Assembly: GCF_023115425.1 (NCBI RefSeq)
Contig: NZ_CP096032.1
Coordinates: 1-64,000 of the forward strand
DNA: 64,000 nt
Source: Synechococcus sp. A10-1-5-1
GTDB lineage: Bacteria; Cyanobacteriota; Cyanobacteriia; PCC-6307; Cyanobiaceae
Reading direction: 5' to 3'
Below are positions 52,217 to 56,204 of the stretch, piece by piece (position 1 is the first letter of the stretch; the number at the start of each line of letters is the position of its first letter). Made by a program: the position numbers and the translations under genes. The notes beneath the pieces were generated by a model that saw nothing but the letters and a program-made list of their open reading frames with translations, had not been told where the DNA came from and did no database searches.

Positions 52217-53050
52217 TCAGCGCTGCGCCAGCAGTGTGTGCGGTTCCCTAGGCGGCCATTCACTGTTGAGGAGATTGGAGAAGAGCTCGCTCCAGCCCTG
52301 CACCAGCCGCTGCTGAAGGGCCTCACCCAAGGCTGGACTTGCTTGGGTGGCATCGCCGACCACACCGCTGGAGCTGAGGTCTTGGCTGAGCCAGGCATTG
52401 GGCACGGCTCCCTCCAGACTCCAGCCCTGGGGAGGGGTTTGGGCCTGGAGGCCATCAATGGGACGCTCGGGGCCGACGAGCTCAGGGTTCAGCTGCAACA
52501 TCAAGCTGGTTTCCGCCAGTCCGGCATGAAGCCCTTGGCTGCGTTCTGGCTCGGGGATTAGGCCACCGATGTCCTTTGGACCGCTCCAGAGGAAGCAGGG
52601 CAGTACCCCCAGGGAAGGGTGGGCGGCGCGGAGTTGGCGGGCCGCGACCTGCAGGAGGGCGATTTGACCGCCATGGCCGTTGAAGAGCACCAATCGCTGG
52701 AAACCGGCTGCCGCCAGCTGAGCTCCGACGACTTCAACGCTGCGAAGGAGCAGTTCGGCTGGGAGGCTCAGGGTCCCCGGAAAGCTCAGGTGCTCGGGTG
52801 AGAAGCCAAGACTTTGCACCGGCAGACGCCAGATCGGGGCCTGAACGGGCAACGCCGCGAGCACTTGATCCAGGATCCGCTCGGCAAACAGCGCATCGGT
52901 TCCCAGGGGGAGGTGCGGGCCGTGTTGTTCAAAGGCGCCAAAGGGCCAGACCACCGTGCTTCCGGCGGTTTGCGCGGCTGCTTGAACGGCTGGCCAGTTC
53001 AAGTGATCGAGGCGACGAGACCCCTGACGGGAGTTTGCGTCTTCGCCCAT
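52217..53050 (-). CDS. Creatininase-family amidohydrolase
   Basis: A 277-residue protein of the creatininase/MftE-like fold. Metal-binding motifs FGAFEQHGPHLPLGTDALFAE near residue 40 and LVLFNGHGGQIALLQ near 120, plus a Glu in GLAETSLML. The substrate is unknown; cyanobacterial members are not studied as far as I know. Divergent from the S1-domain gene with 63 bases between. Confidence 0.85.
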   Translation of the reverse strand: MGEDANSRQGSRRLDHLNWPAVQAAAQTAGSTVVWPFGAFEQHGPHLPLGTDALFAERILDQVLAALPVQAPIWRLPVQSLGFSPEHLSFPGTLSLPAELLLRSVEVVGAQLAAAGFQRLVLFNGHGGQIALLQVAARQLRAAHPSLGVLPCFLWSGPKDIGGLIPEPERSQGLHAGLAETSLMLQLNPELVGPERPIDGLQAQTPPQGWSLEGAVPNAWLSQDLSSSGVVGDATQASPALGEALQQRLVQGWSELFSNLLNSEWPPREPHTLLAQR

Positions 53051-53113: not shown

Positions 53114-54475
53114 ATGGCCGGTTCCGGCACTCCCCAGCCTTCCCAGCCCTCGGCCAACCAGCAACCCACCTCGGCACGTCCGGTGCCCCCGTCGCCGCAG
53201 CGTCCCGCCGCCGCAGCGCCGCCGCCGGTTCGCAAGCCCCCCCAGGTTCTGCAGATCAATAAGAAGGAAGAGCAGCTGCGTTTAGAGCGCGAAGCCGCTG
53301 AAGCCCGCACTGCTGCCGAAGCGGCGGTTCAGCGCGCGGCTGAATTGGAAAATGCCGCCCGCGCGGCCCGCGGTGAGGCCGCGGTTGCACCCCAGCGCCC
53401 TCAGGCCTCCCCGGCCACCAGCCCGTCCAGCACTGACGACGAGCTGTTTGACATGAGCGGTTTTGAAGGCCTGAGCATGGCTGATCTGCTCGGCCCCGAT
53501 GACCGCAGCAAGGGTCGCCGTGCCGGTGGATCCCGAATGGCCACACCACAGGCCAAGCCTGCGGCTGTTCCTTCCCGTTCAGTCGACGACTTCGACTTTG
53601 ACGAAGAAGCCTTCCTGGCGGCCCTCGATGAGCAGGATTTCGTCGGCACGACCGGGGAAGTGGTCACCGGCACGGTGATCGGTATGGAGAGTGACGGGGT
53701 TTACGTCGACATCGGCGGCAAAGCCCCAGGCTTTATGCCTAAGAAGGAATGCGGCCTTGGTGTCATCACCAACCTCAAGGAGCGCTTCCCTAAAGGTCTG
53801 AGCGTGGAAGTGCTCGTGACCCGCGAGCAGAACGCCGATGGCATGGTCACCATCAGCGCCCGCGCCCTGGCCCTGCGCCAGAGTTGGGAGAAGGTCCGTG
53901 CCTTGGAGAAAGAAGGCAAGGTCCTGCAGGTCAAGGTCAACGGCTTCAACCGCGGCGGCATCACCTGTGATGTCGAAGGTCTGCGCGGTTTTGTGCCTCG
54001 CTCCCAGCTGCAGGACGGTGAGAACCACGAGGCGCTTGTGGGTAAGACCCTTGGCGTGGCTTTCCTGGAGGTCAACCCTGACACCCGCAAGTTGGTGCTC
54101 TCTGAGAAGAAGGCGGCAACGGCAGCCCTGTTTCAGAACCTGGAGGTGGGCCAGTTGGTCGAAGGTCAGGTGGTGGCGATCAAGCCCTACGGCTTGTTTG
54201 TGGATCTGGGCGGCATCAGCGGACTGCTGCACCACTCCGTGATCACGGGTGGTCAAATGCGCGATCTGCGTGAAGTCTTCGGTCAGGGTGATCGGGTCAA
54301 AGCTCTGATCACCGACCTGGATCCTGGCCGCGGCCGCATTGCCTTGAACACGGCCCTGCTGGAAGGTCAGCCTGGTGAGTTGTTGATCGAGCGCGACAAA
54401 GTGATGGCTGAGGCCGTCGATCGTGCCAACAGGGCTCGTAACGTGCTGCGTCAGCAGGAACAGACCGCCGGATGA
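53114..54475 (+). CDS. S1-domain RNA-binding protein (ribosomal protein S1 homologue)
   Basis: A 453-residue protein. The first 175 residues are a Pro/Ala-rich stretch (1-45), a charged coiled coil (48-90, KKEEQLRLEREAAEAR) and an acidic linker (DDFDFDEEAFLAALDE). Three S1 domains follow, at about 181-250 (TGEVVTGTVIGMESDGVYVDIG), 270-335 and 350-420 (VGQLVEGQVVAIKPYGLFVDLG). Three repeats and the extension set it apart from a six-domain S1; it resembles the short cyanobacterial S1 paralogue. Its TGA overlaps the ATG of the Tab2-family gene, so they are translationally coupled. RNA binding is expected; target unknown. Confidence 0.85.
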   Translation: MAGSGTPQPSQPSANQQPTSARPVPPSPQRPAAAAPPPVRKPPQVLQINKKEEQLRLEREAAEARTAAEAAVQRAAELENAARAARGEAAVAPQRPQASPATSPSSTDDELFDMSGFEGLSMADLLGPDDRSKGRRAGGSRMATPQAKPAAVPSRSVDDFDFDEEAFLAALDEQDFVGTTGEVVTGTVIGMESDGVYVDIGGKAPGFMPKKECGLGVITNLKERFPKGLSVEVLVTREQNADGMVTISARALALRQSWEKVRALEKEGKVLQVKVNGFNRGGITCDVEGLRGFVPRSQLQDGENHEALVGKTLGVAFLEVNPDTRKLVLSEKKAATAALFQNLEVGQLVEGQVVAIKPYGLFVDLGGISGLLHHSVITGGQMRDLREVFGQGDRVKALITDLDPGRGRIALNTALLEGQPGELLIERDKVMAEAVDRANRARNVLRQQEQTAG

Positions 54476-55371
54476 TTCAGGCCGCCGAGCCCGCGAGTCC
54501 TGCCCGACTGCAGGCGGATTGGGAGCTGGATTACTACTCCCGTCCGATCCTCGAAGAGGATGGAAAGAAGCGCTGGGAGCTACTGATTTGCAGCTCCCCC
54601 TCCGGTGCCAATTCAGACCGAACGTTTCAGTGGGTCCTGAATTGCCCCGCCGCGAGCGTCAACTCCCAGTGGTTGAAGACGGCCCTGGAGCAGGCGCTGG
54701 ATCAGGCGGATGCCGAGGGATTTGACCCGCCCCGCAAGATTCGCTGTTGGCGCTCGTCCATGCGCACGATGGTGCAACGGGCGGCTGAGCAGCTTGGTCT
54801 TGAGCTTGTTCCCAGCCGCCGTTGCTACGCGCTCGTGGAGTGGCTTCAGGAGCGACAGGCCACGGTTTACCCCGAGGAAGAGGGCTACATGGCTGGCCCC
54901 CTGGCTCCTCCTCCGCAGCCGATTCAGCCCGTGGCTGTTCCGCTGCCCGAGGCGGCTCGCGGGGATAGTTGGTCCTGGGCTTCCCTGCCGATCAGCGCCC
55001 TGCGCGAGGCGATGAATTGGGACACCAGCTTTGCGGGCTTGGTTCCCTTGCCGGCGTCCTTGGACGATGAGCTGATGGTCAGTGGCTTGCGCTTGTTCAG
55101 CGCCAGTCGTTCCTTGGCCATTGCCGGTTGGGTCTCCGGCCTGGAGCCCGTTCGCCTGGAGGTCTCCGGCCAGCAGCTGGTGCTCGAGGCGGGGCAAGAG
55201 GACCGTTGGCTCCTGGGGCAGCTGGAATCCGAAGAGGCTGAGGCGGCGGCGGCGGCTTTCCTGGCCGCCCGCGGCCAGGCAGGCGGTGTTCAATTCCTGG
55301 CGGTTCAATCCAGTCCCGATCAACCCGGGTTTGATGGGTTCTGGATCCTGCGTGATCTCCCCGATGCCTAA
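54472..55371 (+). CDS. Tab2/Atab2-family RNA-binding protein (DUF1092)
   Basis: A 299-residue protein of the Tab2 family, which in algae and plants activates translation of photosystem I psaB mRNA. Family blocks: the start WELDYYSRPILEEDGKKRWELLIC, then KIRCWRSSMRTMVQRAAEQL and RRCYALVEWLQERQATVYP. The last third (ISALREAMNWDTSFAGLVPL) is the conserved C-terminal domain ending in FDGFWILRDLP. Overlaps the S1-domain gene by four bases (ATGA). A role in photosystem translation with the S1 protein is inference. Confidence 0.88.
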   Translation: MIQAAEPASPARLQADWELDYYSRPILEEDGKKRWELLICSSPSGANSDRTFQWVLNCPAASVNSQWLKTALEQALDQADAEGFDPPRKIRCWRSSMRTMVQRAAEQLGLELVPSRRCYALVEWLQERQATVYPEEEGYMAGPLAPPPQPIQPVAVPLPEAARGDSWSWASLPISALREAMNWDTSFAGLVPLPASLDDELMVSGLRLFSASRSLAIAGWVSGLEPVRLEVSGQQLVLEAGQEDRWLLGQLESEEAEAAAAAFLAARGQAGGVQFLAVQSSPDQPGFDGFWILRDLPDA

Positions 55372-55379
55372 AGGGCTCC

Positions 55380-56204
55380 ATGGCTGAGGCCGTCGAGGCC
55401 CCCTTTAACCGCCCTGATGCCGGTTTCAATGCCCTAGAGGGCTGGACCTGGATTGGTTGCTACGGGGGCTATTACCTCCAGTCGAATCTTCTGGAGGCCT
55501 TTGAACATGGCTTCTTCACCCGCCAGTGGCATGGCCGGGGCCCTGATGTCCTGGCTGGGTACGTCAGCGCCGGGGTCAGTGTTCACCGGCCTCAACAGGT
55601 TCACAGCGCCTTAGTCCTACCGGCGAGCCAGGCCTGTTCAGATCCCTGGCCCGATGCCGATGGCTTAGTGAGCGATGCCGGTGGGCAGAGTCTTTGGGTC
55701 TGCGGGGCTGATTGCACCCCAGTGCTGCTGGCTGATCCCCGCTCTGGTCAGGTGGCGGCCTGCCATGCCGGCTGGCGTGGTCTGGCCGGGGGCATTGTCT
55801 TGGAGGCGATCCGTCAGTTGGAGCAGCGCGGTAGCAAGCGCAGTGAACTGTTGATCGCTTTGGGGCCAGCCATTAGTGGGCCCAACTATCAAGTGGAGCC
55901 GGCTGTCCCTGAAGCCATCGCCCAGCAGCTGCAGCTCCTGGATGGAGCCCTCTCCCTGGAGTCGGCTCTTGCGGCTCTGAAAGCCTGTGGTGCGCTGCAG
56001 CCGGATCCCGATCCCGAGCGTCAGCGCTTTGATCTGCGCCTGGCAACCCGTTTGCTCTTGGAGCGGGCTGGCTTGCCAGTGGAGCAGATCAGCGTCTGTC
56101 CTCTCTGCACGGCTTCAGAGCCCTTGCTGTTCCACTCCTGGCGCCGGGATCAGGTCAAGGCGGTGCAGTGGAGCGGCATCGTCTCCCAGCAGCTGCCTAG
56201 CTGA
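55380..56204 (+). CDS. pgeF: Laccase-domain purine nucleoside phosphorylase / PgeF (YfiH) protein
   Basis: A 274-residue protein of the YfiH family. Metal-site motifs: FFTRQWHGRG, HRPQQVHSA with the first His, WVCGADCTPVLLAD with the Cys and VAACHAGWRGLAGGI with the second His. The family is linked to peptidoglycan editing and purine nucleoside cleavage; the cellular role here is open. Follows the Tab2 gene by eight bases and overlaps the photolyase by eight bases at the stops. Confidence 0.88.
   Translation: MAEAVEAPFNRPDAGFNALEGWTWIGCYGGYYLQSNLLEAFEHGFFTRQWHGRGPDVLAGYVSAGVSVHRPQQVHSALVLPASQACSDPWPDADGLVSDAGGQSLWVCGADCTPVLLADPRSGQVAACHAGWRGLAGGIVLEAIRQLEQRGSKRSELLIALGPAISGPNYQVEPAVPEAIAQQLQLLDGALSLESALAALKACGALQPDPDPERQRFDLRLATRLLLERAGLPVEQISVCPLCTASEPLLFHSWRRDQVKAVQWSGIVSQQLPS

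Follow-up and report, generated by a model that had tools for sequence, protein, structure and literature searches.

The window, a 64,000-nucleotide stretch of the Synechococcus sp. A10-1-5-1 genome (2.40 Mb, one contig), contains an S1-domain gene and a Tab2-family gene that share the tetranucleotide ATGA, in which the TGA stop codon of the S1 gene occupies positions 54473–54475 and the ATG start codon of the Tab2 gene positions 54472–54474 (Table 1). Both open reading frames of the original prediction and their common ATGA are borne out by the sequence. The prediction had gone on to propose a dedicated S1-Tab2 translation-control unit, perhaps for photosystem mRNAs. The Pfam S1 match of the first protein (PF00575, E = 7.5e-29) agrees with the three RNA-binding domains ascribed to it, and the assignment of the second protein to the Tab2 family held, with E values of 5.3e-30 for Tab2-like_N and 5.2e-44 for Tab2-like_C. 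The Tab2 scores were 103.9 bits for PF06485 (cut-off 25) and 150.2 bits for PF20429 (cut-off 28.2). The source genome carries a single Tab2 gene. Its remaining S1 matches lie in a second multi-S1 gene, at 1.20 Mb, and in a pair of larger open reading frames, which have one each.

Table 1. Features of the S1-Tab2 locus, in window coordinates.
Feature	Position	Strand	Basis or remark
Creatininase-family gene, divergent, upstream of the S1 gene	52217..53050	-	PF02633
Rps1b-type protein, 453 aa	53114..54475	+	~150-aa low-complexity N-terminal extension, then three S1 domains
S1 domain 1	53651..53842	+	PF00575, E = 6.6e-6
S1 domain 2	53909..54103	+	PF00575, E = 2.5e-8
S1 domain 3	54140..54352	+	PF00575, E = 3.3e-13
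AGGAA, possible Shine-Dalgarno sequence for Tab2, within the end of the S1 gene	54456..54460	+	11 nt before ATG; by eye
ATGA overlap, S1 stop/Tab2 start	54472..54475	+	Sequence; same 4-nt overlap in 55/75 linked family genomes
Tab2, type A, 299 aa	54472..55371	+	PF06485, PF20429; A side of tree, support 100/99
Tab2 N-terminal domain, residues 14–137	54511..54882	+	Predicted integrase/RNase H-like fold (model), conserved catalytic set missing
Tab2 C-terminal domain, residues 152–299	54925..55368	+	Confident model, PDB match unclear
PgeF (peptidoglycan editing factor)	55380..56204	+	TIGR00726 above cut-off; starts 8 nt past Tab2

The S1 protein had also been described as having a long coiled-coil N terminus. 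This is partly right: the extension is real (53114–53570) and mostly of low complexity, and a possible coiled coil, at about residues 48–97 by eye, is not conserved within the family of the source organism (hereafter, the family), whose Rps1b proteins share only short N-terminal motifs near residues 40–52, 122–128, and 155–173. The linked S1 genes that we read outside the family encode shorter proteins than that of the window (292–337 aa). Among the S1 equivalog models, the best match of the window protein was NF005639 (236.9 bits), below the curated cut-off of 460. A quick tree of 47 S1 proteins separated a slow type, Rps1a, from a fast type, Rps1b, to which the window gene belongs together with the second S1 gene of PCC 8801 and the linked genes, with a long-branch warning from the tool and an unsure inner branching order. 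Judged by its sequence, the window S1 protein is a divergent paralogue on the side of this tree opposite Rps1a.

In one S1 survey, 26 of 34 genomes had a single strong S1 match, and the six single-S1 genomes placed in the tree (two from f18 and one each from f19, f50, f51, and f58) all fell within Rps1a. These counts differ from a 2019 paper (PMC6878006), which credits every sequenced cyanobacterium but two Gloeobacter species with a pair of Rps1 genes. Synechocystis slr1984 (Rps1b) resembles the window protein in its three S1 domains and in belonging, with the second S1 gene of PCC 8801, to the non-Rps1a side, a placement taken from its name in PMC12475003 rather than from a sequence comparison. 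The family copies differ from slr1984 in their N-terminal extension of 100–150 aa and in adjoining tab2A.

The Tab2 protein was modelled with AlphaFold2 (pLDDT 92.7). Its N-terminal domain is predicted to follow the beta-beta-beta-alpha-beta-alpha-beta-alpha order of the RNase H-like fold, and residues 14–137 of the model aligned with retroviral integrase cores (7jn3_B: Z = 10.6, rmsd 2.8, 108 residues), with a best Foldseek E value of 4.9e-4 to integrases. D20 was invariant in 58 of 58 Tab2 rows. Judged from the alignment ends, and with what we take to be the integrase catalytic residues, it stands where the first of these is expected. Between residues 42 and 159, no column was acidic in more than 70% of the 58 rows, in a comparison made by column rather than by mapping the exact catalytic positions residue by residue. 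R94, R116, and R117 were at least 90% conserved. An active nuclease or transposase was rejected, as there is no complete conserved set of catalytic acids, and an inactive nucleic-acid-binding domain is the likelier reading of the modelled fold. The integrase-like model lends support to a 2014 study that assigned DUF1092 to the RNase H-like proteins from sequence (PMC3985635). The role in transposition or integration proposed there is not supported, as the catalytic acids are not conserved as a set. Tab2 thus resembles the RNase H-like superfamily, to which retroviral integrases and transposases belong, in an N-terminal domain that aligns with integrase cores, and differs from it in the incomplete conserved catalytic acids and in an extra C-terminal domain. 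The latter was modelled with a pLDDT of 94.4. Nothing in the PDB matched it with E < 0.001 (best Z = 4.3), so its family cannot be named, which does not in itself make it a new fold. A mobile or phage origin of Tab2 was also considered and rejected, with no match in phage or plasmid collections.

Tab2 matches were present in 159 of 160 Cyanobacteriia outside the family and, within it, in 136 of 151 genomes (1.0–4.0 Mb, a size range that points to picocyanobacteria), including 94 of the 95 most complete. Across a sample of the phylum, 187 of 386 genomes matched, and the 20 unmatched genomes that were listed, with 179 more unlisted, all lay outside Cyanobacteriia; one genome outside the class, G260, gave a match below the cut-off (E = 1e-3). 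The only match among 14 control genomes was in a cyanobacterium. Within this sample, Tab2 is confined to photosynthetic lineages, apart from reduced endosymbionts that keep type B without psaA/psaB. Two Tab2 matches were found in 104 of the 159 non-family genomes and one in the other 55.

A careful tree of 62 Tab2 proteins, for which alone the type is settled, resolved two types, A with 46 rows and B with 16, at a support of 100/99. The window Tab2 and all linked copies in the tree, 15 of them from outside the family, are of type A. The single Tab2 of the Gloeobacter-sized genome G505 lies on the B side and groups with copies of G555 and G563, both of which also carry an A-side copy, so the sequences suggest that the A/B split is probably very old. 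Match length proved unreliable for typing: the shorter Tab2 proteins of f18, f25, and f26 belong to A in the tree, with the f18 row on a long branch. In g19, the likely genus of Synechocystis, there is a single Tab2, which is of type A in both rows included in the tree.

Within the family, Tab2 lies directly downstream of the S1 gene in 75 of the 77 genomes whose S1 locus was examined. Of these 75, 55 show a 4-nt overlap and 8 a 1-nt overlap. In the two exceptions, G386 and G483, Tab2 lies within 230 bases of a contig start. Outside the family, we compared S1 and Tab2 matches in 160 Cyanobacteriia (13 of the 173 non-family genomes were left out) and observed both genes on the same strand, no more than 3 kb apart, in at least 42, belonging to seven families: f23 (18/19), f15 (13/19), f49 (6/6), f10 (2/2; which we take to be S. 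elongatus), and f4, f8, and f47 (1/1 each). This number is a lower bound owing to the genomes left out and to the few second S1 matches listed. A rough calculation gives about 0.1 linked genomes by chance. No linkage was seen in the other 118 genomes, a few of which may have been missed as their second S1 matches were mostly unlisted, or in 30 other families, including f5 (0/20), f19 (0/14), and f7 (0/9). The adjacency in 75 of 77 family genomes and the excess over chance elsewhere indicate that the pairing is more than coincidence; it is old and recurs in other lineages. The genes had been expected to be unlinked in most relatives if the proposed unit were wrong, and the answer depends on the range considered: they are linked throughout nearly all of the family and unlinked across most of the class. 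In one locus (G527:C98:26034-29000), an Rps1b-type match is accompanied by two Tab2 matches of 333 and 315 bases on one strand within 3 kb.

PgeF is part of this short locus in 70 of 75 genomes of the family; the Tab2 loci examined in 66 other genomes all lack it. A general operon with PgeF was rejected, this arrangement being confined, among the loci read, to the family of the window. The creatininase-family gene accompanies the S1 gene at its locus in 59 of the 77 family genomes and also stands beside the pair in two f10 and two f49 loci that we read. Of three f15 loci scanned, two have a TldD/PmbA-type metallopeptidase gene next after Tab2A, as do the loci of f10, f8, and f4 (together L186, L173, L175, L182, and L189). 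A different gene follows in the third f15 locus and in the scanned f23 and f49 loci. At the Tab2B loci of G143 (L105) and G147 (L104), a divergent RimM gene (ribosome maturation) lies upstream. In G143, an Ap4A phosphorylase open reading frame follows Tab2B and overlaps its end if called from the first start codon.

Reduced genomes provided a natural experiment on the two Tab2 types. The genus of G143 comprises seven genomes, four of which (G147, G183, G268, and G630) are reduced to 2.5–3.1 Mb. No psaA/psaB match was found in G147 and G630, and G183 and G268 hold only broken pieces. All four have lost Tab2A and keep open frames for Tab2B, Rps1a, and Rps1b. The larger members, G143, G628, and G629, have both Tab2A and Tab2B, with psaA/psaB intact in G143 and G628 and, in the draft G629, one gene full-length and one split over contigs. 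In exact length, G147 and G183 equal the spheroid bodies of E. turgida and R. gibberula, and the main contig of G143 equals PCC 8801 (Table 1 of PMC5638926). G268 and G630 are classed as diatom-endosymbiont-like from their genus, size, and gene loss only. Two genomes of 1.4–1.5 Mb in the same family as G143, G632 and G633, displayed the reverse pattern, retaining only Tab2A, with Tab2B gone, and only Rps1a, with Rps1b gone. Their size and family fit UCYN-A, as does the length of G633 (1,443,806 bp), and we refer to both as UCYN-A-like. The UCYN-A lineage is reported to possess photosystem I and to lack photosystem II (PMC11070190). Tab2A without Rps1b also occurs in members of f18, f19, and f58.

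Because Tab2A was lost with psaA/psaB and kept in the UCYN-A-like genomes, it appears to follow photosystem I, and Rps1b, kept without intact psaA/psaB and absent beside Tab2A elsewhere, does not appear to be tied to that photosystem. The S1 gene and Tab2A were not kept or lost together in the reduced genomes, the UCYN-A-like genomes, or f18, f19, and f58. The photosystem guess of the original prediction consequently fits the Tab2 protein, on moderate gene-content evidence, and not its S1 partner. Of 1,779 core proteins, 507 are absent from all six spheroid bodies (summed here from Table 1 of PMC12903740), which implies a loss chance of about 28% per core gene. Furthermore, the endosymbiont genomes represent one or two lineages and are not independent, and UCYN-A kept few genes. 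Given this base rate and the few lineages, the double dissociation is moderate evidence, and the joint pattern of Tab2A, Tab2B, psaA, and psaB is suggestive rather than decisive.

Several genomes depart from the pattern. G505 has no A-side Tab2, and we assume that it possesses photosystem I. G506 has no Tab2 match, one strong S1 match, and nearly full-length psaA/psaB matches of 85–86% identity, on the strength of which it was rejected as a non-photosynthetic case; it is a 50-contig draft, 98% complete, in which a gap is possible. Family f6 (50 genomes) contributes four drafts, 79–92% complete: G636, in which Tab2 went unmatched, and G644, G646, and G652, whose Tab2 matches are B-length or fragmentary, none being of A length. 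Within the family of the window, 15 of 151 genomes lack Tab2 matches, and a single one of these 15 belongs to the 95 most complete.

Chloroplast Tab2 is reported to bind the psaB leader RNA and to activate psaB translation. The window Tab2 belongs to the same Pfam family as Tab2/ATAB2 of Chlamydomonas, Arabidopsis, and tomato (SLTAB2), with both domains above the cut-offs, and its family is likewise found in photosynthetic lineages in our sample, the reduced endosymbionts excepted. Unlike these, it comes from a bacterium, represents one of two types, and is joined to an S1 gene. The A/B typing covers bacterial sequences only. Chlamydomonas TAB2 is listed as a "PsaB RNA binding protein" (PMC8448359), and the mode of action of Tab2 in chloroplasts is described as debated. 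In the papers examined, the only cyanobacterial Tab2 work found was a Nostoc proteome study, which proposes testing the effect of TAB2 on photosystem I and links Nostoc all2318 (TAB2) to PII in a STRING network (PMC7290344). The literature searched yielded no description of the S1-Tab2 linkage or the A/B split.

We consider the best explanation to be an old co-expressed pair (probability roughly 0.55), in which Rps1b is a general factor and Tab2A a photosystem I factor, and the two need not act only on each other. The first gene would encode Rps1b, an accessory S1-type mRNA-binding protein of general translation. Tab2A would most likely contribute to the biogenesis of photosystem I, probably by attaching to the psaAB leader and stimulating psaAB translation, by analogy with the reported action of chloroplast Tab2 on psaB, and its inactive nuclease domain may be the part that binds RNA. 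The overlap suggests that Tab2A and Rps1b are translationally coupled, an arrangement that could keep Tab2A in step with an mRNA-recruiting factor. We also put forward, tentatively, a longer history, in which an integrase-fold protein of oxygenic phototrophs gave rise, close to the base of Cyanobacteriia, to translation activators devoid of catalytic activity and was duplicated early. Tab2A might then have come to serve photosystem I mRNAs, and Tab2B other mRNAs still needed after the loss of photosynthesis. In the family of the window and several further lineages, Tab2A would be produced from one message with an S1 protein that recruits mRNA.

The dedicated unit of the original prediction, with the S1 protein and Tab2A in one complex or pathway selecting photosystem mRNAs, would account for the ATGA overlap, the near-universal linkage in the family, and its recurrence in seven others. 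We nevertheless regard it as improbable, as four genomes without intact psaA/psaB retain Rps1b, Rps1b is absent from the UCYN-A-like genomes and the f18, f19, and f58 members that have Tab2A, and the linkage was not seen in 118 of the 160 other Cyanobacteriia, a few possibly missed. A broader service of Tab2A to photosynthesis or thylakoid biogenesis (photosystem II, antenna, chlorophyll insertion), not to psaAB alone, seems unlikely. It is consistent with the near-universality of Tab2 in Cyanobacteriia and with the description of Arabidopsis ATAB2 as acting on both photosystems (PMC4861014 and PMC11449065), but it sits poorly with the retention of Tab2A in UCYN-A-like genomes, whose lineage reportedly has photosystem I and no photosystem II. 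Moreover, PMC11070190 reports thylakoids in the photosystem-less endosymbionts of E. clementina, which argues that thylakoids alone do not explain the loss of Tab2A.

The losses in endosymbionts might instead be coincidental decay, with Tab2A in a housekeeping RNA role unrelated to photosynthesis. The base rate of ~28% among core proteins and the non-independence of the four reduced genomes lend themselves to such a reading. It would, however, require opposite outcomes in two lineages, with A lost and B retained in one and B lost and A retained in the other, and in our genome sample Tab2 is associated with Cyanobacteriia. We therefore hold coincidental decay to be very improbable.

For the co-expressed pair favoured here, the finding carries a warning that gene linkage is not the same as shared function, the partner S1 gene being independent in gene content. 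The existence of two Tab2 types, only one of which follows photosystem I in the reduced genomes examined, indicates which gene to delete and what to expect from the deletion. The linked pair appears in family f10, presumably S. elongatus, a genetically tractable host.
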